From Thermoproteota archaeon (GTDB lineage Archaea; Korarchaeota; Korarchaeia; Korarchaeales; Korarchaeaceae): a DNA stretch of 64,000 nt. Below, in pieces: positions 5,389 to 39,962 of the stretch. Every line of letters starts with the position of its first letter. The stretch's first letter is position 1. The DNA lies in the NCBI GenBank assembly GCA_026986575.1, contig JALSOH010000011.1, positions 1-64,000 on the forward strand, read 5' to 3'. The position numbers and the translations under genes are program-made. The notes under the pieces were generated by a model. It worked only from the letters and a program-made list of their open reading frames with translations, was not told the origin of the DNA and made no database searches.

Positions 5389-5955
5389 CTACTCGGTAGA
5401 ATCGATACCAGCAGCCTCCATTAGGACCTCCAGCTCCTCAAGGATGCCGAGCCTCTCCGCTAACTCCCTAGCGGATCTCCAGTTCACTTGAACGCGTCTG
5501 AATCTCTCGATAGTCACTGGTCTCACCCCCCTGAACGCCTCCAGAACTGCGTAGGCTTCGACAGTCAGCGACAGGAACGATATCCCCCATCTCTTGACCT
5601 CCACTATGTGACCCTCGAAGGTGGGGAGGGGATCCCCTAGGGGGGTAGTCGTGAATATCTCCACCGGAATGGGTCTCTCATCGGTCGGATAGTACAGTGT
5701 AAACACCCGGCCCCTCTCCGTCTTGAGGAGCTCAAGCCTCATCTTCTCCAGGCCAGTGGCCTCTCTGTAAGCCTCCTCTATGATGGAGAGGGTGATGTTA
5801 GGGGCGAGCAGATCTATGTCCTTGCTGGAGACGTCGATGCCCGCGACCACAGCCAGTATCTGAGATCCGTAGATCAGAGTGGGGGTTTTCTCACTGAGGG
5901 GTGGGTAGATGGAGAGGAGGACAGGCAGCCACTCATCCTCACTCCTGACGGTCAA
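5389..5955 (-). CDS. Nucleotidyltransferase-fold protein
   Basis: 188 aa from a TTG at 5955. It shows YGSQILAVVAG (Gly-Ser turn), SSKDIDLLAP (metal-binding Asp pair) and IPVEIFTTT (third acidic position), the order of a pol-beta-type nucleotidyltransferase of the kind found in AbiEii-like or MNT antitoxins. The TTG overlaps the TGA of the upstream gene (TTGA), so translation is coupled. A longer reading starting at 6138 exists, but its first 60 residues only shadow the upstream gene. Role as antitoxin or toxin is inferred from this arrangement. Confidence 0.65.
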   Translation of the reverse strand: MTVRSEDEWLPVLLSIYPPLSEKTPTLIYGSQILAVVAGIDVSSKDIDLLAPNITLSIIEEAYREATGLEKMRLELLKTERGRVFTLYYPTDERPIPVEIFTTTPLGDPLPTFEGHIVEVKRWGISFLSLTVEAYAVLEAFRGVRPVTIERFRRVQVNWRSARELAERLGILEELEVLMEAAGIDSTE

Positions 5956-29929: not shown

Positions 29930-30067
29930 CCCCTTTATTGGATCCTTAGCTTTTTAGTCATTCGTAAGAGGGATCGCAATCCCTGGTGATTGATATCGCG
30001 CCGATGAACCCCATGATTCCAAGGCCTGACCGATGGAGTACAGACCCTGCGAGGCTAGATGGAGCTT

Positions 30068-30077
30068 CTTTTAAATC
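30068..30077 (+). promoter_or_regulatory. TATA box of the emfourin-like gene
   Basis: CTTTTAAATC ends 23 bp before ATG 30100. It supports this start over the in-frame codon at 29986. Confidence 0.5.
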
Positions 30078-30099
30078 ACCCTTGGAATCATCGAGATGG

Positions 30100-30912
30100 A
30101 TGGAGATTGGAACGATCGCCCCAGCGGTGCTGGCGGTGAGCCTTACTGCTCTCCCTACCTCGTTGAGACAGCCCCCTCTCTTGGTCTACTACAGGAGAGG
30201 AGGTATCTCCGGATTAATCGAGAACTTGATCGTTTACTCGGATAGTACTGGGATCTACAGGAGGGATGGTGAGGAGATCAGAGGCAGGGTGGATGGGGAC
30301 ACGGTATCCGCCTTGGAAATGATCCTTAACTTGGTCTCCAAGCGGGGCTTCTCCGAGGTGAGCCCAAGGCTGGGAGCTGTGGATTTCCTCCACCACGAGG
30401 TGATATATCCGAGAAGGGGTGAGAGGTTCGCTTGGGTGGATGAATGGGCCTCTGAGGTGGAGCTGCCTAGTGAGATAAGGGCTCTTACCAAGCTCCTGGA
30501 CCATATCATCTCCATAGTTAGAGGAGTTGAGTGGGTGAACTGGGAGGAGAGCTCCACCGCCTATCTGAGGATGAGGGCCTCTTTGGACGGGCTGGTGGTG
30601 AGGGATGGTGCTACCCTACTGCTGAAGGTGTCGATAGCGTGCTTAGGAGAGGTTGAGATCTCCTACACCCTCCCGACACCTGACTCACCCGATGTGAAGG
30701 TCGGATCCGACGCAAGGATATTGGTGAACTTCTTGAAGGTTGAGGGACGTGTTATCGATGGAGGGAGGAGGAAACTGATCCCAAGGAGGAAACTCGAGAT
30801 CGAAGCATCTGTGAAGCTGAATGATGTGGGAAAAGGTCTCTACTGGTTGAGCGTTCACTTCCCTCCGAGGACCCCGAGCATCGAGGTATCTCTACCACTC
30901 GTGGTCGTGTGA
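30100..30912 (+). CDS. Secreted protein with emfourin-like domain
   Basis: 270 aa from ATG 30100. A signal sequence (IAPAVLAVSLTALPTS) is followed by LVYYRRGGISGLIENLIVYS, IRGRVDGDTVSALEMILNLV, FLHHEVIYPRRGERFAW and LPSEIRALTKLLDHI. This order (R-x-G-G-x-x-G start, beta strands, C-terminal helix) resembles emfourin, a protein inhibitor of M4 metalloproteases. A second beta domain follows. No M4 protease is in the window. The domain call is moderate and the function inferred. Confidence 0.5.
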   Translation: MEIGTIAPAVLAVSLTALPTSLRQPPLLVYYRRGGISGLIENLIVYSDSTGIYRRDGEEIRGRVDGDTVSALEMILNLVSKRGFSEVSPRLGAVDFLHHEVIYPRRGERFAWVDEWASEVELPSEIRALTKLLDHIISIVRGVEWVNWEESSTAYLRMRASLDGLVVRDGATLLLKVSIACLGEVEISYTLPTPDSPDVKVGSDARILVNFLKVEGRVIDGGRRKLIPRRKLEIEASVKLNDVGKGLYWLSVHFPPRTPSIEVSLPLVVV

Positions 30913-31365
30913 GCCAATGTTCCCATCCAGCTCGCATCTAATTACTCTTCCCTAGTAGGGATCGGATCAGAGAAAACCCTACAGAGTGAATGGGAACTAT
31001 AAGAAATAAAGGTTGTGGGAACCCCGACCAGACCTGTGGATCTTATCAAAGATCCCCACGATTCAGCTGATCAGGAACACTAGGGTCAGGAGGATCAAGT
31101 AATATACAAAGTAGAGCTCAAAGGAGACCTCATTCTCAGCTATGCTCCCAAGCAGCTCCAAAGATGGGCAGTGGAACGAACTGATCAGGAGGAAGAGCAT
31201 GCAGGACAGATCTTCCATTTATATTGGAAGGGATCTTCAGGGAAAGAAATGTTCTTGCATAAATCCTTGATATAGCTTCTTCGTAATGAGTAATTTTAGA
31301 AAATAATTATAGAAAAAAAGTTCATAAATTTAAAAATAATTACATATACGCGAAAATGGATACCT
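30913..31365. other. Intergenic region with hairpin and AT-rich promoter
   Basis: Apart from the small minus-strand ORF, it has a hairpin (GGATCTT, loop ATCA, AAGATCC; 31038-31055) after the emfourin-like gene, and a very AT-rich block (31280-31350) with TATA-like TTTAAAAATAATT ahead of the protease gene. Confidence 0.5.
31063..31218 (-). CDS. Possible 51-residue membrane peptide
   Basis: ATG 31218 to TGA 31063. CMLFLLISSFHCPSLELLGS and YFVYYLILLTLVFLIS form two hydrophobic segments around a charged turn. The codons look host-like although the surrounding DNA is AT-rich. No ribosome site or well-spaced TATA box is clear. It lies opposite the peptide cluster upstream of the protease gene. Confidence 0.35.
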   Translation of the reverse strand: MEDLSCMLFLLISSFHCPSLELLGSIAENEVSFELYFVYYLILLTLVFLIS

Positions 31366-32076
31366 ATGAGGCCATTCAATCGAGGATGGATTTTGATATA
31401 TGGAATATCCAATGTAGTGGTAGTTGCTTTATTTTTCCTACATTTCATCCTATTCCTGTTGGAAGGACTCCCATCTATTGAGCCTAGAACGGTGCTACCG
31501 CTGCTGATCTTCTCGGTATTGACTTCCTACATACTCCATGAACTCTCTCATTATGTGGCAGGCAGAGCCTTGAATCTCCAGCCTAAGATAGGGGTAGGGG
31601 GAGGAAGGGGAATTTTCAAGAGGTTTCTATACGTGAAGATATGTGATAGTGCTGCATCGAGGACTAGAGCCTCGATTGCCGCCTTGATGGGCCCATCCGC
31701 GAATGCTCTCGCCGTGATAGTAAGCGGATACCTATCCCGATACAACAGTACCGCTCTAATCTTCGGCATTGCTAACTTCCTAGTGCTCACCTCCACGGTT
31801 CTAGTCAGAGGACCTACTTCCGACTACAATGCCGCATTTCTGCCTACCCTGGTTAAGAAGACCTCAGGGAAGATCAGAGCCATCACCATGAATAAGGTGA
31901 AGATCGATACAGTACTGAGCAATGCGATATTCCTATTAGTTGCGATCTCTCCACTCACCAGAGGACTCGAGTACGTTTGGGTGTCCCTAGTACTGTTTCT
32001 GGCGATTATACTATCTACACCTCTCTATGGTCTGACGGCGAGCGTGATAGGTAAGTTGTTGCTCCCTAGGCGGTGA
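31366..32076 (+). CDS. M50/S2P-like membrane metalloprotease
   Basis: 236 aa with about six membrane helices. SYILHELSHYVAGRALNL gives H-E-x-x-H inside a membrane helix and VRGPTSDYNAAF supplies the downstream Asp, as in site-2-protease-like enzymes. ALMGPSANALAVI is a further family-like helix. Intact. It heads the gene cluster. Processing or maturation of the small peptide encoded downstream is inferred from position. Confidence 0.7.
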   Translation: MRPFNRGWILIYGISNVVVVALFFLHFILFLLEGLPSIEPRTVLPLLIFSVLTSYILHELSHYVAGRALNLQPKIGVGGGRGIFKRFLYVKICDSAASRTRASIAALMGPSANALAVIVSGYLSRYNSTALIFGIANFLVLTSTVLVRGPTSDYNAAFLPTLVKKTSGKIRAITMNKVKIDTVLSNAIFLLVAISPLTRGLEYVWVSLVLFLAIILSTPLYGLTASVIGKLLLPRR

Positions 32077-32188
32077 GGTGAAGAACGCCCCATCTATGCA
32101 TAGATTATTCGTGGATCAAGGGTGGGGTCGTCAATGTCTAGTCACTTTTTATATTTTTGGTCTGTGTTCAGCACTTCGGGTAGTTGAA

Positions 32189-32662
32189 GTGTTCGAGAGG
32201 AAAAGAAGAAGCGAATTAGACATTATAGCAGATATACTAGGCATTCTATCAGAAAAAACGCAGTCCATAACAAAAATAATGTACAAAGCGAACCTTTCAT
32301 ATAATCTCACCAAGTACTATGTGGATAGATTATTATCTTTAGGCTTAATAGAAAAAATAGAAAGAGAATATTGTATTACAGATAAGGGTATCAAATTTTT
32401 AATAATATACTCATTTATAAAATCTGTAATTGGAGAGAAGGTAGAATTTAATTCTAGAATTATACACAGTAACAATATTTCTGAAATTTTAAAGCTTAAA
32501 GAATACCTTGAGTTGCTAAGTGGCAGAGGTCTTGGGGAGGTGAGTCCGTTGGTGGAAAAGGGAACTAGTAAAAGGATAGAGGAGCTGAAGGAGTTAAAAG
32601 AAGTTATCCCCGAGGAGCTCCCTGGATGTGGGCTCTGGGCCTGCGGGACAAGTGAGAGATGA
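32189..32662 (+). CDS. Winged-helix regulator with C-terminal peptide-precursor-like tail
   Basis: 157 aa from GTG 32189, behind CTTTTTATATTTTTGG (32144-32160); the frame opens earlier at 32078. KRRSELDIIADILGILSEKT, ITKIMYKANLSYNLTKYYVD, RLLSLGLIEKIEREYCITDK is an archaeal winged helix with its wing. After residue 110 the composition changes from AT-rich to host-like and the last 37 residues are a Glu/Lys helix ending PGCGLWACGTSER. The tail may be a fused or separately started peptide precursor. Confidence 0.65.
   Translation: MFERKRRSELDIIADILGILSEKTQSITKIMYKANLSYNLTKYYVDRLLSLGLIEKIEREYCITDKGIKFLIIYSFIKSVIGEKVEFNSRIIHSNNISEILKLKEYLELLSGRGLGEVSPLVEKGTSKRIEELKELKEVIPEELPGCGLWACGTSER
32549..32662 (+). 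CDS. Candidate RiPP precursor peptide (internal start)
   Basis: 37 aa if initiated at TTG 32549, which has GGGGAGG (32534-32540) eight bases upstream; GTG 32552 is also possible. KRIEELKELKEVIPEE looks like a leader helix. The C-terminal segment LPGCGLWACGTSER has two Cys and a Pro-Gly before the first, as a modified core would. It is in frame with the winged-helix gene, so it may be made as part of that protein, separately, or both. The gene next to it encodes a radical SAM/SPASM enzyme. Confidence 0.45.
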   Translation: MVEKGTSKRIEELKELKEVIPEELPGCGLWACGTSER

Positions 32663-32783
32663 GTGAGGGATGTCTCCCTACGATCTCTACCTCAATCTAT
32701 TATCTTTCTTCCATTTAGATTATGCTTTCATAATTAAATTTTATGTATTGAATTATTAAGGTAGTTGAGATAGGGGTGAATTT
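32663..32783 (+). promoter_or_regulatory. AT-rich spacer with probable promoter of the radical SAM operon
   Basis: A pyrimidine run (TCTTTCTTCC, about 32703-32712) follows the precursor, then AATTAAATTTTATG near 32732-32745, about 40 bp before ATG 32784. AGGGGTGA just before the ATG is a ribosome site, so this transcript has a leader. Confidence 0.4.
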
Positions 32784-34019
32784 ATGATAGAGAGCGAGAG
32801 ATCTCTGACCGCTTTTGAGCGGACAAGTAGTACCGTCTTAATAAAGAAAGTAGTGTTTGTAATTACTTACTTGTGTAACATGAGGTGTACATATTGTTAT
32901 TATGGGAATGAAAATCTAAATATATTATCAAATAAGGCGATATTAGGAAAAACAGTTATGAGCTGTGAAGTAGTTGAAAAAAGTTTACACCTCTTCGAGA
33001 ACATGGGACTGCTCGCTAGGGATGTGCTGTATTTCCATATCTTCGGTGGAGAGCCCTCCATGTTCCCCGAAATAATCTACTGCATACACAAGAAAGTCAA
33101 TCAATTAACAAAATCTAGGAAAATTGCTCTTTCTATTTCTACAAACGGGTATTATTTCAGTAAAAAATTCCTAGAGGTTCTGGGTAAAATAGAGAATGTG
33201 GAAGTAACTGTGAGCATAGATGGACCTCAGGTGGTACACGACAACCAAAGAAAGGATATTCTTGGCAATCCTACCTTTGACAGAATCGTTAGTAATGTAA
33301 AAAAACTAGTCAAAATGAGGGTTAATAATAAAATTAGAAGGATAGTGGCTGAAGTAACAGTAACCAAGCATACCCTCGAGTCCGGCCTCCTTCGTACCGT
33401 AGAATTCCTCAGAAATCTCGGCTTCGATGACGTGGTACTCCATGTTGTTGAAGGAGTTAATGAATTGAAACCAGATGTCTCGATGTACTTTAGGAACAAG
33501 ATAGAACTACTGAAAGTTGAGCTGGAGAGGTTACTTTCAAGTGAACCGCCACTCTATTCAGGGACGGTGTCTCTCATCAGAGCGGTCCTCAATCCCAGCA
33601 TCAGACAGTGCGACGCTGGGAGGAGCTTAGTGGCTGTTACACCCGAGGGTGATATATACCCTTGTCAAGGCTTCGTCGGACTAGAGGAGTTCAGGATAGG
33701 TAACCTGGAAGATTTGAATAGTCGCGAAGAGTTCTTGAGAAATGTCCAGAGAGTTTTGAGGAGGATGGGTAACAAACTCATGGATCCTCGGTGCGCCGGC
33801 TGCGCTTTCGTGAGAGAATGCCCAAAGATATGCTTGGCATCAAACGTTTTAGATGGGAGGGATCCCTACCAGTTTAGCGATGAGTATTGCGATGTGATAC
33901 GAAAAGAGGTAGAAATAATTCATGGATTTTTAAAGAGACTTTCTAATAATGTTGGGGAACGGAGGAAGGTCGTGGAAGGCATGAGGAGGTGGGCCTCTGG
34001 TGGTGGCAGTAGTCTGTAG
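32784..34019 (+). CDS. Radical SAM/SPASM peptide-modifying enzyme
   Basis: 411 aa. Radical SAM motif CNMRCTYC (C31, C35, C38) binds the first Fe-S cluster. FHIFGGEPSMFPE is the GGE motif and SISTNGYYF and VEVTVSIDGPQ follow in barrel order. The SPASM C-terminus has QCDAGRSLVAVTPEGDIYPC, then FRIGN, CAGCAFVRECPKIC and a late DEYC. Such enzymes crosslink or epimerise ribosomal peptides or activate enzymes. It is directly downstream of the candidate precursor and its stop overlaps the ABC ATPase start by 20 bases. Confidence 0.9.
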   Translation: MIESERSLTAFERTSSTVLIKKVVFVITYLCNMRCTYCYYGNENLNILSNKAILGKTVMSCEVVEKSLHLFENMGLLARDVLYFHIFGGEPSMFPEIIYCIHKKVNQLTKSRKIALSISTNGYYFSKKFLEVLGKIENVEVTVSIDGPQVVHDNQRKDILGNPTFDRIVSNVKKLVKMRVNNKIRRIVAEVTVTKHTLESGLLRTVEFLRNLGFDDVVLHVVEGVNELKPDVSMYFRNKIELLKVELERLLSSEPPLYSGTVSLIRAVLNPSIRQCDAGRSLVAVTPEGDIYPCQGFVGLEEFRIGNLEDLNSREEFLRNVQRVLRRMGNKLMDPRCAGCAFVRECPKICLASNVLDGRDPYQFSDEYCDVIRKEVEIIHGFLKRLSNNVGERRKVVEGMRRWASGGGSSL

Positions 34020-34911
34020 AAATTTAACCAAGATCTACAGTAATGGAGTTGTGGCGAACGATTCAATCAATCTAACAGTAAGAAAGGGGATAATCTTCAC
34101 TATTCTAGGACCGAACGGAGCTGGTAAAACAACCTTACTCCGCCAGATCTACACCGAACTCCTACCGACGAGCGGAGAGATCGAGGTCTTCTCGATAAAT
34201 GTCGTTGAGAATCCTATGGAAGTGAGGAAGCTCATAGGGGTCGTGCCTCAGGCTGGTCTCCCCATACCAGAGCTCAGGGTAGAAGAGCACATTAGGTACT
34301 TCTCCCAACTCAGAGGGGTGGAGGATGTAAATTCGGCGGTCTCTTACGCCCTAGAGACTATGGATCTAGAAGATTACAGGGACAGACTGGTTATGGAGCT
34401 CTCCGGAGGATTAAAGCAAAGAGTGCTAGTGGCCACTGCCATAGCCACGAAGCCCAAACTACTGATACTCGATGAACCCACTGTAGGCATGGATCCAATC
34501 ACCAGAAGGAGGTTTTGGAGGAAGATGGAGGAGCTTAGGGGGGAAGGAAGAACGATCCTGCTCACTACCCATTACGTGGATGAGGCAGAGACCGTGTCTG
34601 ATGAAGTAGCTATTCTCAATAAAGGAAAGATAGTCCACAAAGGCAGACCGGCGGATTTCAAGTCGCTCCTGAAGCTCAAAGCTTATGTCATCGTGAAGGG
34701 GAGGAACATAGATCCTTCCATCTTCGTGAATTACGGGAAGATCGTTTACTTCGATGACTACACTCTCAAGCTCGGACTGGAGGAGATAGACTTCGACCTC
34801 CTTAAGGAAATCAGGGATTCCATTCTCAAAAGAGGATTCGTCTTCACGTTCAAGGAGGCTTCACTCGAAGATGCTTATGTCCAGCTGGTGGGAGGTGACC
34901 TGATTGGTTAA
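34000..34911 (+). CDS. ABC transporter ATP-binding protein
   Basis: 303 aa from GTG 34000, with AGGAGGTG upstream inside the radical SAM gene. Walker A ILGPNGAGKTTLLRQ, Q-loop VVPQAG, signature MELSGGLKQRV, Walker B LLILDEPTVGMDP and H-loop TTHYVDEAE are all present. The C-terminal 80 residues form the extra domain of ABC-2-type exporters. It overlaps the permease gene by 8 bases. Export of the modified peptide or immunity to it is inferred. Confidence 0.93.
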   Translation: MVAVVCRNLTKIYSNGVVANDSINLTVRKGIIFTILGPNGAGKTTLLRQIYTELLPTSGEIEVFSINVVENPMEVRKLIGVVPQAGLPIPELRVEEHIRYFSQLRGVEDVNSAVSYALETMDLEDYRDRLVMELSGGLKQRVLVATAIATKPKLLILDEPTVGMDPITRRRFWRKMEELRGEGRTILLTTHYVDEAETVSDEVAILNKGKIVHKGRPADFKSLLKLKAYVIVKGRNIDPSIFVNYGKIVYFDDYTLKLGLEEIDFDLLKEIRDSILKRGFVFTFKEASLEDAYVQLVGGDLIG

Positions 34912-35641
34912 GCTCCTCAGGGACACCTTAGTGATTGTAAAGATAAGGTCAAGCTGGATAAGAAATCAGCCCACCCTCTACTTGGGAACTTCATTTTTCA
35001 TACCGATCGTCCTGTCGCTTCTGTTCTGGATGATGGGCATGGAGATGACTGAGAGAATACTCTTGGGATCCATGGTCTACTCGCTAGTGTATCCCGCTGT
35101 AGCAACTGTTGGCAAAAGTGTTGCTTATGATAAGATAAAGGGTTCCTTCACCCTCTTTTCTACCTCTCCCATCTCCCCCTATGCCTATATATTGGGTACC
35201 GCCCTGTCAACTTTGCCCTCAAGCCTCATACCTTTCCTCATGTTCATGCTTGCATCGACCCTGATCTTCGGACTGAATCTAACGGTGATATCTTTTATAC
35301 TCTCTTTAATGATCCTAGTTTTTGGTGCCCTCTCTCTCAGCTTCCTAGGGTTCTCATTGGGCTTTAGGCTAAGAGATCCCAGGAGCTCAGATGTCATAGT
35401 AGATATGATCTGGGCCTTGATGATATTCCTCTCTCCGGTCTATATACCTTGGTCACGGATACCTGAAATTGTAAGACCTGTCTCCCTCGCGATGCCGACC
35501 ACTTACTTGGCGGAATTACTAAATTTGGTGCTATGGGGTAGAACATTCCTCAGCACTTCAGTCCTAGTTGGAGCCAACGTGGCGTTTTTCTCATTCTTCG
35601 CAATGATCGCCCTCCGTTATGGTAAGATGAGGGAGAGCTGA
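34904..35641 (+). CDS. ABC-2-type transporter permease
   Basis: 245 aa with six membrane helices. FSTSPISPYAYILGTALS-like stretch (TLFSTSPISPYAYILGTALS) and RDPRSSDVIVDMIWALMIF, then LSPVYIPWSRIPEIVRPVS are the ABC-2 permease signature region. It pairs with the overlapping ATPase to form an exporter. Intact. Confidence 0.88.
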   Translation: MVKLLRDTLVIVKIRSSWIRNQPTLYLGTSFFIPIVLSLLFWMMGMEMTERILLGSMVYSLVYPAVATVGKSVAYDKIKGSFTLFSTSPISPYAYILGTALSTLPSSLIPFLMFMLASTLIFGLNLTVISFILSLMILVFGALSLSFLGFSLGFRLRDPRSSDVIVDMIWALMIFLSPVYIPWSRIPEIVRPVSLAMPTTYLAELLNLVLWGRTFLSTSVLVGANVAFFSFFAMIALRYGKMRES

Positions 35642-35643
35642 CT

Positions 35644-36663
35644 ATGATTCGGATTCACGGTACTAAAAGATACGCCAAAGAAACTAGGCGGATTCTAGGG
35701 AGAAGACTAGAGAGAGTAATAGGGAGGTTCACTGGAATAAGTGAGATCCTCATACCTCCGAGTATCGGTAAGATTGGGAGGAGCAGCCTCTTCTCAAGGT
35801 TATCACCATTACTATCGCGCTCAAACTTAAAATCCCGAGCGTTGAACACATCTAGGCTTTTTTACTGTATAGGTGAAGCTTTCTCCAAGTTACTTGGCAT
35901 GGATGAATCTCTGGTTAGGTTAAGTGGTGAAATCTCCGCTAGCTTAGCAGCTAAGAATCTGCTAGTGGACTGGATTGCGGATGAATCAGGTAAGAGTGAG
36001 GTTTTAGACATATTGGTAGAGGGCATGGAGTGGGAGGAGAGCCTGAGGATCATCTCAAACGATATGCTAGGGAACATATTAGGGACTATAATAACTATTA
36101 GGAGGTTAATTAAATCAAGAAATGAATTTTACGCTCGAATATTTACAAACAAAGCTATTAAATCTATCAAATATTTCAAAATATCTAGCAGGTGCTCCCC
36201 CTCAAGTGAGCACCTCTCGCCTGAATGGATATTAGACAAAGCCCGGCTTCCCATTGAAGAGATATTTGCGGCGATAGCTGGTCTATCCGCGGATCTGGGA
36301 TACAGAAACTACTTATCGATAAATGATAAGTTAAGGTATGGTTTCTCTATCTTCGCCGTCATAGATGATTTGGCCGATCTCCCTAAAGACATCCTTAGAG
36401 GTCAATGTAACTATGTCATCTATTACCTCTATGATAACGGTGTATTGAGGTTTTACAAAGGAAGAGGAAGAGGTCCTAGCGATGAGGAACTGGAGATCGC
36501 CTTCAATAAGGAGTTCGTTGAAATAATTTCCTGGCTATTGGATTACTATCTAGATATTTACACCGATATGGTCCGTAAACTATTCGAATTTGATAGATCG
36601 ATCAGAAACTACTTCAACTATATACTCTATTTGGAGATGATTAACTCCTTGGGGAAGCTATGA
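35644..36663 (+). CDS. Class I isoprenoid-synthase-like protein
   Basis: 339 aa, helical. GFSIFAVIDDLADLPKDILR (DD at 241-242, D245, D249) followed by GQCNYVI matches the second Asp-rich motif of trans-prenyl synthases and their relatives. The first motif is not DDxxD; LLVDWIADE (D109, D113) is the only candidate. The basic N-terminus (first 60 residues) is atypical. It starts three bases after the permease stop, so it belongs to the operon. Either a divergent prenyl or terpene enzyme or a non-catalytic homologue; link to peptide lipidation is speculation. Confidence 0.6.
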   Translation: MIRIHGTKRYAKETRRILGRRLERVIGRFTGISEILIPPSIGKIGRSSLFSRLSPLLSRSNLKSRALNTSRLFYCIGEAFSKLLGMDESLVRLSGEISASLAAKNLLVDWIADESGKSEVLDILVEGMEWEESLRIISNDMLGNILGTIITIRRLIKSRNEFYARIFTNKAIKSIKYFKISSRCSPSSEHLSPEWILDKARLPIEEIFAAIAGLSADLGYRNYLSINDKLRYGFSIFAVIDDLADLPKDILRGQCNYVIYYLYDNGVLRFYKGRGRGPSDEELEIAFNKEFVEIISWLLDYYLDIYTDMVRKLFEFDRSIRNYFNYILYLEMINSLGKL

Positions 36664-36684
36664 TACTGGTTTCTCAGAAATCCG

Positions 36685-36831
36685 ATGAGTGATGACAGGA
36701 GGAAGAGGATGCTAGAGGACCTGAGGAAGCTGAGGAGGGAGGAGGAGAGGATGAAGAGGTTGGAGGGAAGATAGGTGAACGGAAGGAGTTACGCGGTTGA
36801 TGCGAGCGTTCTCTGTGCACGACTCCTCTAG
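36685..36831 (+). pseudogene. VapBC remnant
   Basis: ATG 36685 gives a 29-residue charged helix (RRKRMLEDLRKLRREEERMK), like an antitoxin tail without its DNA-binding half. The GTG right after its stop opens MNGRSYAVDASVLCARLL, the start of a PIN toxin with its first Asp, then TAG at 36829. Nothing of the remaining PIN domain is visible downstream. Confidence 0.5.
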
Positions 36832-36943
36832 CTAAATTCCCCACAATCTCCCTCTCTCTATTGTCGTCGAGGGCTATGCTCTCCTCTTTATCGACTCAAT
36901 CGATTGGAAGACTCACATATCGCGCAATGCAGATCCAGCCCCA

Positions 36944-38806
36944 ATGTTTTTTATGATGCTCTCAGAAGGAAATGGTAAAGTAGGGCTGTTGATTTGGATG
37001 TTTTATAAATCTCTCCTTCTGGCTTTCATAGTTCTCGCCATGTTTATTCAGCCCCTCGCCATTAAGGCGGACCCTCAGAACTCGACCTTTACAGGCCCAC
37101 CCCCACTGCCTGAAAACCCTGGCACATTGACGGGCGTACCTCCAGACAAGTGTAGTTCCCAGAACCTTGATAACATCTACGACTCATATCAGAAGGCTGA
37201 AGAGATGTCCTCACAGTACCCCTGTTACAAGTACTTGGCGGAGCACTATCACTACAAGTATCTCCGGCTCAAGTGCCTGTGCCAAGGGGGTTGCGATAAG
37301 GAGGCCGTAGCCTCATACTACCAAAAGGAAAACGCTTATTATGAGAAGTTTCACACGCTCTTCGAAAATGGCAAGTGCGGACAGATTACGGCTCCGCCCA
37401 CAGACGTAGTAACCACAACAGAGGGGGCTTCCACTCCTGGAAATAACTCCGATCCTCAGCTCATCTCAACTTGGGTTTTCCCTAGGGAGGGAACGGGAAA
37501 CCAGGTCTATAATTATTCTGTAAGCCTCACCGACCCAGATAATGATCCTGTGATGGTTCAGCTCTGCATACACGTCCTAGACGCTGGATGGCAGTGCTTC
37601 GACGCCCTTCAGGTAATGGGAGAGGGAACTGCCAGCTGGAACATGACATTCGTGAACGCCACTCCTGGGACTTATGAGTACAGGATTTACTATGACGATG
37701 GGAATAACAGGGGGGCTTGGGGTCCCTACGGTGGGCCTGTAGTGAAGGCCAGTTTGGTAAACCCAAATGGGAGTAAGTTTGGAGCAGATGAAAGTAATCC
37801 TGCTACAGAGGGAAATGAATCCAGTACGAATAACTCCGATGATGTCACTGGAGCGGTTATAGTCGGGGTATCCGCGGCAGCAGGTGTTGCAATTGCCAAG
37901 AAGGCTAAGGGAAGGAGGAAAAACAAGGAGGAGAGGGGAGATGAGAAATCCTCCCTTGACCAGTTCACGCAATCCGTGGAGGATGCCAACAAGTGGGCCG
38001 GAAAGACGAAGCCCGTGACGGACGTAGTGAGCCAGGCTGGCGCCTATTCCTCAGAGAAGGGGCTGGATAAGGGAATTAGAATGGGTGCAGATAGTTGGAA
38101 GAACGCTGAGAGGAAGAGAATAGTGAAAAAGTTCAGGGAATTCAGGAATGGAAAGAGCGTGAGGCAAAGCGTGTTAAGGGGAGGGGGTAAGGACGGAGGA
38201 GGTTTCTGGGACCCAAAGAAGTATAAGAAGCTCAAGAGACTAGGTAGAAGGGCAGTTAACCTTCCCAAGAAATACAAGACTATTAAGAACTTAGCTAATA
38301 AGGTCAGAAGTGCCTCAAAATTCGCCTCGAAGTACATCGGGGCGGCCTCCATAGGCCTTTCCACATATGACGGGGTGAAGAGCTACAACAAATACATCGA
38401 TGAGAATAAGGACTTCGTGAAGGACCATCCGATCATGGGAAGGGCCCTAGGAGCCATGAAGGCCTTTGGCGAACAGGTCATAATATACACCGTGACCAAG
38501 AACCCGGTCATAGGTCTCCCAGATGCCGTGATAGGGTACGCGACCAACGGCAGGGTGTCCGTGGCCAGGGCGATTCAGGATACGGAGGACTTCGTTAGCA
38601 AGGGGATAAGATCCATGGCAGATGCCTACTACGGCAACCAGTACTCGGACTGGAGCGAGGGATATGCCAATCACTCCTCGATAAAGAAGCACCTTTCCAT
38701 GCTGAACGATCCCGACTATGTAAGAAAGCTGAAGGCTAGGGGTTGGACCGACGAGAGGATAGCGAGGGTGAGGAAGAGCATGGAGGAGGCCCTAGGGATG
38801 AGGTGA
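36944..38806 (+). CDS. Large exported membrane-spanning protein with Ig-like domain and basic C-terminal region
   Basis: 620 aa. Signal sequence near residues 20-41 (SLLLAFIVLAMFIQPLAIKA). Residues 70-145 hold six Cys in a helical Tyr-rich segment (YKYLAEHYHYKYLRLKCLCQ). Residues 172-268 form an Ig/cadherin-like domain with LTDPDNDPVMVQLCIHVLDA. A second helix spans 301-318 (VTGAVIVGVSAAAGVAIA), followed by about 300 residues, first strongly basic and Gly-rich, then a small hydrophobic domain (GAASIGLSTYDGVKSYNKYI). Family not recognised. Start among the first Met codons is uncertain. Confidence 0.6.
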   Translation: MFFMMLSEGNGKVGLLIWMFYKSLLLAFIVLAMFIQPLAIKADPQNSTFTGPPPLPENPGTLTGVPPDKCSSQNLDNIYDSYQKAEEMSSQYPCYKYLAEHYHYKYLRLKCLCQGGCDKEAVASYYQKENAYYEKFHTLFENGKCGQITAPPTDVVTTTEGASTPGNNSDPQLISTWVFPREGTGNQVYNYSVSLTDPDNDPVMVQLCIHVLDAGWQCFDALQVMGEGTASWNMTFVNATPGTYEYRIYYDDGNNRGAWGPYGGPVVKASLVNPNGSKFGADESNPATEGNESSTNNSDDVTGAVIVGVSAAAGVAIAKKAKGRRKNKEERGDEKSSLDQFTQSVEDANKWAGKTKPVTDVVSQAGAYSSEKGLDKGIRMGADSWKNAERKRIVKKFREFRNGKSVRQSVLRGGGKDGGGFWDPKKYKKLKRLGRRAVNLPKKYKTIKNLANKVRSASKFASKYIGAASIGLSTYDGVKSYNKYIDENKDFVKDHPIMGRALGAMKAFGEQVIIYTVTKNPVIGLPDAVIGYATNGRVSVARAIQDTEDFVSKGIRSMADAYYGNQYSDWSEGYANHSSIKKHLSMLNDPDYVRKLKARGWTDERIARVRKSMEEALGMR

Positions 38807-38810
38807 TCCG

Positions 38811-39740
38811 ATGAGACTCACGAATGAAGAGTTGGCGGCTGCCTTCGCCGCTTTGAATGAGAGCCCTTGGCTCCTCCTCTCCGTGTGGGGGTCCTTCCGG
38901 AGGGCGAGGGAGGGGGTCGAGGGCCTCTCCAGCAGAGGGCTGATCAGTGAAGGAAGGCTCGAGGAGGTTGCAAGCCTCATAAGGACCTTATCAAAACCGA
39001 AGCTGATGGCTGATGTCTTCACCGTAGACTTCGAGGGTGGAACCATGAGCAGGGAGTCCTATGTAGCAGGAGAGGGGACTTTCCTTCTCAGGATAGGGAA
39101 CGAGTTCATCTGGGCTGAAAGATCGGAGCTCAACCTCCTTGACCGCCCCACCTCCGTCATGAGGCCAATCCTCTTGGATGGAAGGGAGCTAATGGTCCTC
39201 TTCCTCATACTTACCATGGACATATACAGCTACGATGTTCCCGGTCTGGCGCCATTCACCGCAGACGATGTGCAGAAAAGGGTTGAGGTGGGATCTCACA
39301 TCCCCCTGAACGCCCAGATAATCCTGATAGGTGGTAAGAGAGCCCCGAAACTCAAGGTGAAGGACGTGAAAAAGGTGCTCAGATCCCTCGTCGAGAAGGG
39401 AGTGCTCATATCCCACGGGAATTCCCTCTCCATATCTGAGGAGTTCCTCCCGGCGGCCCTTGCCCTAGGCTCCCCCGACAGGATCAGGATAATATCGATC
39501 ACAGCGGACCCCGAGTCAGATGACCCCGACCTGAGGACGATCGCCATATACGAGCTGGGAAGCTCCTCGGTGGCCATGGACATCTTGGACGGGGGGAAGG
39601 GAATCGTGGTGATAGGAGGCCCCCTAAGCGATATCCCTGGCTATGCAGGGGAGGTTCACGGGAAGATCTGCCCGAATTGCGGTCATGTGAACAGGGGAGA
39701 TGCCAAATTCTGCATAAAATGCGGAACGAGACTGGCGTGA
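38811..39740 (+). CDS. Zinc-ribbon protein co-transcribed with the exported protein
   Basis: 309 aa starting four bases after the previous stop. The C-terminus CPNCGHVNRGDAKFCIKCGT is a zinc ribbon. The N-terminal 250 residues are mixed alpha/beta (LLLSVWGSFRRAREGVEGLS, KPKLMADVFTVDFEGGTMSR, TFLLRIGNEFIWAERSELNL), with a fold rhythm that reminds me of EspG-type chaperones of ESX secretion, though the resemblance is weak. It has no signal peptide, so it is a cytoplasmic partner of the 620-aa protein. Confidence 0.55.
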   Translation: MRLTNEELAAAFAALNESPWLLLSVWGSFRRAREGVEGLSSRGLISEGRLEEVASLIRTLSKPKLMADVFTVDFEGGTMSRESYVAGEGTFLLRIGNEFIWAERSELNLLDRPTSVMRPILLDGRELMVLFLILTMDIYSYDVPGLAPFTADDVQKRVEVGSHIPLNAQIILIGGKRAPKLKVKDVKKVLRSLVEKGVLISHGNSLSISEEFLPAALALGSPDRIRIISITADPESDDPDLRTIAIYELGSSSVAMDILDGGKGIVVIGGPLSDIPGYAGEVHGKICPNCGHVNRGDAKFCIKCGTRLA

Positions 39741-39962
39741 ATGGATCTAGAAGGGGAAACTGCCTAATAATGAACTCCAATATGGCTTTCCCATCGCCTA
39801 TGAGGGGAAAGCAACATGGGAAGAGCAGGATCTTGAGAAATGCTGTAGGGACGGGAGTGGCTGGCTTACGAACGAGTGGAGATTAGCGGGCTGAGAGATG
39901 TAAAGCAGTCGATCTTGAAAGATCTCTTGGATAGTCAATAGGGGCCTTGGGTTAATCCATAA

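Follow-up and report, generated by a model that had tools for sequence, protein, structure and literature searches.

Gene Content and Accessory Nature of the Cassette

The DNA stretch analyzed here (the window) consists of the first 64,000 nucleotides (nt) of contig JALSOH010000011.1, part of the 1.91 Mb genome (11 contigs) of a Korarchaeum-type archaeon, and it contains a cassette of six genes that likely encodes a peptide-modifying system of some kind. The features of this cassette are listed in Table 1. A first-pass annotation had described six genes on one strand, the last four overlapping or nearly abutting, and the coordinates of the six open reading frames (ORFs) agree with this description; all lie on the plus strand, and of the three junctions among the last four, the first two are overlaps of 20 nt and 8 nt and the third is a gap of 2 nt. 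The second of these ORFs spans positions 32078-32662 at its full length, and the probable gene start within it is discussed below.

In one congener (G015, contig 57, locus L203), the regions corresponding to positions 30068-30912 and 36923-39806 of the window, with 73 and 90% identity, respectively, surround 4.27 kb of unrelated genes, which encode a member of the NAD-binding/epimerase family, a membrane protein and proteins of AbrB/PIN type. The similarity of two other congeners (G017 and G011) to the window likewise ends at position 30912. The G+C content is 0.35-0.49 within the cassette versus about 0.50-0.56 in its flanks. These six genes are gained or lost as one accessory block, and the exporter and the protease that had been named as companions of the radical S-adenosylmethionine (SAM) gene are real companions, present or absent together with it.

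Table 1. Features of the cassette, with window coordinates and the basis of each assignment (aa, amino acids).
Feature	Position	Strand	Basis or remarks
Accessory cassette	30913..36922	.	Bounded where synteny with congeners breaks
Membrane metalloprotease-like protein (M50/DUF3267-like)	31366..32076	+	HELSH motif; about 4 hydrophobic segments (hydropathy); sub-threshold Pfam matches
Sso10a-type winged-helix protein with unusual C-terminal tail, candidate precursor	32189..32662	+	157 aa from GTG 32189
Candidate core peptide EELPGCGLWACGTSER	32612..32659	+	C-terminal end of the winged-helix protein; CX3E (CGTSE)
Alternative small ORF, rival precursor or chance	32670..32759	+	29 aa, hydrophobic, no Cys; between the winged-helix and radical SAM genes
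Radical SAM/SPASM peptide maturase-like enzyme	32784..34019	+	Motifs, NCBIfam, AlphaFold2 (AF2) model, PDB profile search, Foldseek
ABC-2 type exporter ATPase (DrrA-like)	34000..34911	+	PF00005, E=2e-30; drrA subfamily, 205 bits, under its cutoff
ABC-2 type permease	34904..35641	+	PF01061, E=3.9e-16; five hydrophobic segments
Orphan, probable distant isoprenoid-synthase-fold enzyme	35644..36663	+	Resembles first and second Asp-rich motifs (FARM and SARM): DWIAD (109-113), DDLADLPKD (241-249)

The Radical SAM/SPASM Enzyme and its Relatives

The radical SAM enzyme contains the complete set of cluster ligands that the first-pass annotation had claimed for it, viz. a CX3CX2C triad (C31/C35/C38) and the seven Cys residues of the SPASM pattern (C276, C294, C337, C340, C346, C350, and C369). 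Of the NCBIfam models, PapB matched it best (150.7 bits, residues 22-361), followed by the ScfB-related, nif11, and SCIFF maturases (116-119 bits), and at lower ranks by the QhpD-type model (101.5 bits) and the sulfatase maturase model TIGR03942 (100.2 bits, against a cutoff of 349). For calibration, a plasmid-encoded PapB-type enzyme scored 411.8 bits on the PapB model, and SCIFF and nif11 enzymes scored 273-282 bits; enzymes of all three types had their own models at the top, followed by the same group of models. The ranking supports a grouping with the peptide maturases rather than with the sulfatase maturases. The PDB profile search placed CteB first (2e-70), then a sulfatase maturase (2e-42), with EpeE at about 1e-7. 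An AF2 model of the enzyme (pLDDT 80, pTM 0.83) gave a similar order in Foldseek, where CteB was first (6e-20), the sulfatase maturase formed the second cluster and EpeE scored 2.9e-5. Because PapB scores best and the model fits CteB best, the sulfatase-maturase alternative is disfavored; no sulfatase gene is present in the cassette. These comparisons place the enzyme in the neighborhood of the peptide maturases, although not as a proven member.

The same comparisons bear upon an alternative modeled on the epipeptides, according to which the enzyme would epimerize residues, as YydG/EpeE does, no thioethers would be formed and the ABC pair would provide self-protection. The cassette contains the same parts as yydFGHIJ, i.e., a radical SAM enzyme, a membrane protease and an ABC pair (PMC7026026). 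However, EpeE is a far weaker match than CteB by both profile and fold, and the enzyme in the window has the full SPASM ligand set; we consider this alternative very unlikely.

Homologs were searched for in 394 archaeal genomes, including 29 from the same phylum. The nearest enzymes in these genomes showed 25-30% identity to the radical SAM enzyme, and its relatives elsewhere in the phylum only about 24-36% over the matched part. Broader scans with radical SAM patterns returned generic enzymes only (20-29% identity).

The best archaeal relatives, in loci L236 and L237 from genomes that appear to be Thermococcales-like, adjoin ABC genes and small Cys/Asp-rich ORFs, several with Cys and Asp in CX3D spacing. 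Small ORFs with repeated CX3D are located beside a 483-aa SPASM enzyme and the ABC genes at L236:5730-5915 and L237:5970-6125, both on the minus strand; no NCBIfam model matches them, and they are likely archaeal ranthipeptide precursors. In a more distant locus, L255, a 72-aa ORF (5543-5761, plus strand) ending in QELPFICKGGCVVCAAGSILSPF is followed by the radical SAM gene, an overlapping ATPase gene and a permease gene, an arrangement that appears sactipeptide-like. In none of these three loci was a match found to the orphan or to the winged-helix and M50-like proteins. They support a general peptide-maturation reading of the cassette.

The Winged-Helix Protein and the Candidate Core Peptide

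The prediction of a winged helix upstream of the radical SAM gene was borne out by matches to PF14947 (E=5.4e-22) and to the Sso10a family model NF053610 (81.4 bits, above its cutoff of 60), and Sso10a itself was found in the PDB at E=2.6e-7. In a test of codon use, with statistics trained mainly on korarchaeal genes, the first 111 nt of the ORF had a z of -0.3, the domain 3.4 and the tail 2.9. As the 111-nt extension is without coding signal, and a TATA-like stretch is located at about 32147, the gene probably starts from the GTG at 32189 rather than at 32078. With this start, the gap to the protease gene is about 112 nt and holds the TATA-like stretch. The tail reads as coding by its codon use, which suggests that it is translated.

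The end of this tail, EELPGCGLWACGTSER, holds a single Cys-X3-Glu (CGTSE), and a Trp is present at the eighth position from the C-terminus. In a comparison of 1122 ORF C-termini, eight combined a Trp with at least two Cys, and of these, this tail alone also had CX3[DE], a rarity (1/1122) that overstates the case, as the criterion was set after sight of the sequence. No homologs of the tail were found, and homologs of the protein from the phylum align over its winged-helix part only. Judging from its position, its composition and the one CX3E, the tail is our best guess for the substrate of the radical SAM enzyme, with about an even chance of being so.

It may be instead that the cassette is of the type that makes ribosomally synthesized and post-translationally modified peptides (RiPPs), but that the winged-helix protein is solely a regulator, the true precursor being a short peptide missed by the gene caller or encoded elsewhere. 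Its Sso10a-type domain is that of a bona fide DNA-binding family, with a score over the cutoff and PDB matches, and in the other archaeal loci the radical SAM gene is accompanied by small precursors that are encoded separately. Furthermore, the 29-aa ORF between the two genes has an in-frame codon signal (z=3.2). However, this ORF is devoid of Cys and lies across what is likely the promoter of the radical SAM gene. Within the cassette but outside its genes, none of the small ORFs both carried Cys and showed a good coding signal, and the C-terminus of the winged-helix protein, with its Cys and Trp, is a rare one. On balance, we regard this alternative as rather unlikely.

The Putative Membrane Protease and the ABC Exporter

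For the first gene of the cassette, the proposal of an M50-like membrane protease agrees with the HExxH motif (HELSH) and the hydrophobic segments, whereas the profile matches are weak and below threshold (DUF3267, E=8e-4; M50, E=0.04, with a score of 13.7 versus the Pfam gathering score of 27.2). The ABC ATPase and the permease were confirmed by Pfam to be an ABC-2 pair. Relatives of the permease in congeners are located in unrelated loci.

The Orphan Last Protein

A DDxxD-type motif had been reported for the last protein of the cassette, and the Asp-rich sequence at residues 241-249 is indeed present, but a match to an isoprenoid-synthase family is absent in Pfam and NCBIfam. At the limits used, no Pfam or NCBIfam model of any kind matched this protein, nor did PADLOC, and no PHROG match was credible; in the absence of a family match, its assignment to the isoprenoid synthases depends upon weak profile evidence. 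No homolog was found in the 394 archaeal genomes or by tblastn against phages and plasmids. Viral and genome collections were also scanned with patterns for this protein and for the radical SAM enzyme, again with no relative found, although the short exact peptides used miss distant ones; the alignments behind two of the scans (A2 and A3) included altered copies of the query, solely to steer the choice of patterns. Weak matches to a pilus-assembly-like protein in G001 (read as such from sequence and neighbors) and to a PurE-like protein in G199 were rejected as chance.

An AF2 prediction for the orphan alone gave no usable fold (pLDDT 34). When it was aligned by hhalign with 31 korarchaeal polyprenyl synthases, residues 189-266 fell on the second Asp-rich region, with DDLAD on DDIL, and the score of 26.2 may be compared with a maximum of 25.5 among 131 control proteins (mean 15.8, sd 2.8). 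In addition, LLVDWIADES (106-115) resembles the first Asp-rich motif, e.g., LIHDDIMDES, with the first and fifth Asp kept (D109 and D113). The two motifs are 132 residues apart, and in the korarchaeal synthases this distance is 127-153. The joint motif score was reached by 74 of 2000 shuffles (3.7%) and by 19 of 645 control proteins (2.9%). These results are suggestive of an isoprenoid-synthase fold, which we consider somewhat more probable than not.

The residue upstream of SARM in this protein is Ala238 (F237-A238-V-I-D241) and not Gln. In Trp prenyltransferases, a Gln upstream of the second Asp-rich motif has been tied to the recognition of Trp (PMC10853753; PMC13290415). As this Gln is missing, prenylation of Trp would be possible but is not favored over other acceptors. 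It is doubtful that the orphan transfers a prenyl group, and the lipid linkage proposed for the peptide is weakly supported, by a distant resemblance to isoprenoid synthases.

This protein also enters into an alternative without any RiPP, in which the radical SAM enzyme would mature a protein or make a small molecule and the orphan and ABC genes would function in lipid or membrane metabolism. The tight operon formed by the radical SAM, ATPase, permease and orphan genes would suit it, as would the sulfatase maturase cluster in Foldseek and the possibility that the last enzyme uses membrane isoprenoids as substrate. Against this, the profile rankings favor peptide maturases, the genome already has two canonical polyprenyl synthases, and no gene for a sulfatase or other protein target is present in the cassette. 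We consider this alternative improbable.

The Insertion Site and Neighboring Genes

The cassette follows an anchor gene of no known family (29986-30912). Past this gene, the DNA differs among the four congeners that were compared (the present genome, G015, G017, and G011). The site after this gene is an integration hot spot. No tRNA or Rfam family marks it. A near-identical 17-nt direct repeat (16/17), at 31186-31202 and 36696-36712, brackets the cassette genes; when the window was shuffled 100 times, two such matches arose only once. The repeat may have been left by an insertion, or it may have arisen by chance, the DNA being rich in purines. A highly charged 29-aa ORF, MSDDRRKRMLEDLRKLRREEERMKRLEGR (36685-36774), with coding-like codon use (z=4.4), is perhaps a gene remnant at the right end of the cassette. 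Just beyond the cassette, in the region of 90% identity to G015, a 620-aa protein without family and with two hydrophobic segments is encoded at 36944-38806. At least seven PIN-domain (VapC-type) genes are found across positions 7720-49280, and this richness in PIN-domain genes indicates a variable region.

Proposed Pathway and its Significance

The cassette, discrete and found in this genome only, is probably an acquired RiPP pathway, in which the radical SAM enzyme would modify a ribosomal peptide to give a product of a ranthipeptide-like kind. The Sso10a-type protein would be made with its C-terminal tail, the helix part serving as a leader and perhaps also as a regulator. The SPASM enzyme would then take hydrogen in the tail to form a thioether, most likely from Cys to Glu within CGTSE, as suggested by the similarity to PapB and the CX3E motif. 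The orphan could add a further modification to the peptide, for which the Trp and the free Cys are possible sites, from a diphosphate substrate, prenyl or otherwise; this step is weakly supported. Lastly, going by gene content, the metalloprotease would cut off the modified C-terminus, and export of the peptide or protection of the producer would fall to the ABC-2 transporter. The chemistry is inferred throughout, from a cassette in which the gene content, the cofactor-ligand motifs, the accessory nature and the coding signal in the tail are observed. With the exact bond left open, the precursor, radical SAM and protease/export steps taken jointly could equally well be right or wrong; a thioether as the modification is somewhat less likely than not. 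That the whole is true, viz. an entire DNA-binding Sso10a-type protein as leader, a regulator that would thus bear its product at its own C-terminus, and a peptide both cross-linked by a radical SAM enzyme and isoprenylated by a new isoprenoid-synthase-like enzyme, which would be the first such archaeal lipopeptide, is a long shot.

Several observations weigh against this pathway. The score on the PapB model (NF047865) is far under its equivalog cutoff of 340, and the enzyme is without the N-terminal region of about 75-90 aa found in CteB, L236 and similar enzymes. The tail has only one CX3E, versus six motifs in PapA. The gap of 121 nt between the winged-helix and radical SAM genes has its own TATA-like stretch, and thus the two genes may not share a transcript. 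The check suggested earlier was whether the order of the six genes is conserved together with a short Cys-containing peptide. No second copy of the gene set was found in any other of the archaeal genomes searched, including those of the phylum, and the tail and the gene order are thus without support from conservation.

According to one genome-mining study, clusters for ranthipeptides and sactipeptides occur across the archaeal superphyla, with few products identified, those of the study itself being lanthipeptides (PMC12144867). Radical SAM peptide clusters have thus already been reported in archaea, and this cassette adds two unusual putative parts, a possible DNA-binding leader and an orphan enzyme, in which its interest lies. 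Within the limited library of literature consulted, no paper was found in which the maturation of a peptide by a radical SAM enzyme is combined with an enzyme resembling isoprenoid synthases. If the tail is the substrate, a DNA-binding protein would represent a new type of leader and the product would be tied to regulation; if the last enzyme moves a prenyl group, peptide prenylation by enzymes like trans-isoprenyl diphosphate synthases (trans-IDS) would be extended to archaea. Self-contained, exchanged recently and present in a deeply branching lineage of archaea, the cassette constitutes a small testable unit.

Comparison with Known Systems

PapB cross-links Cys with the Asp or Glu of CX3D/E motifs, and it also accepts motifs with other spacings (PMC9413430). 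The cassette shares a SPASM enzyme with the PapA/PapB (freyrasin) and CteB/SCIFF systems, PapB giving its best family score and CteB being its best solved relative, and it shares CX3E, here in the candidate substrate, with PapA/PapB. It differs from both in a score below the equivalog cutoff and the lack of a CteB-like N-terminal extension, and from PapA in a candidate substrate with one motif and a winged-helix leader. In the yydFGHIJ epipeptide operon of Bacillus, a radical SAM enzyme likewise occurs together with a putative membrane protease, YydH, and with an ABC pair of ATPase and permease, YydIJ (PMC7026026). However, the radical SAM enzyme is of another type (that of the window being nearer to CteB than to YydG/EpeE), the gene order is different, and the window adds a candidate precursor linked to a winged helix and an isoprenoid-synthase-like gene. 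The archaeal loci L236, L237, and L255 also combine a SPASM enzyme, ABC genes and a short Cys-bearing ORF, and in L255 the radical SAM gene overlaps the ATPase gene in the same order, but their precursors are separate small ORFs.

The Sso10a chromatin-type winged-helix proteins match residues 44-108 of the second ORF over the family cutoff, whereas the protein in the window adds a tail of about 80 residues ending in the Cys/Trp motif. As with ComQ, PalQ, and the ChrP domain, which are trans-IDS-like, an isoprenoid-synthase-like protein is located beside a Trp-containing candidate peptide, and the orphan keeps the first and fifth FARM aspartates of the trans-IDS-like prenyltransferases. ComQ has an intact first Asp-rich motif and a degenerate second one (PMC5331326). 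Compared by published features, the orphan shows the reverse pattern, with its SARM intact, and it has Ala238 in place of the Gln found upstream of SARM in ComQ/PalQ-like enzymes.

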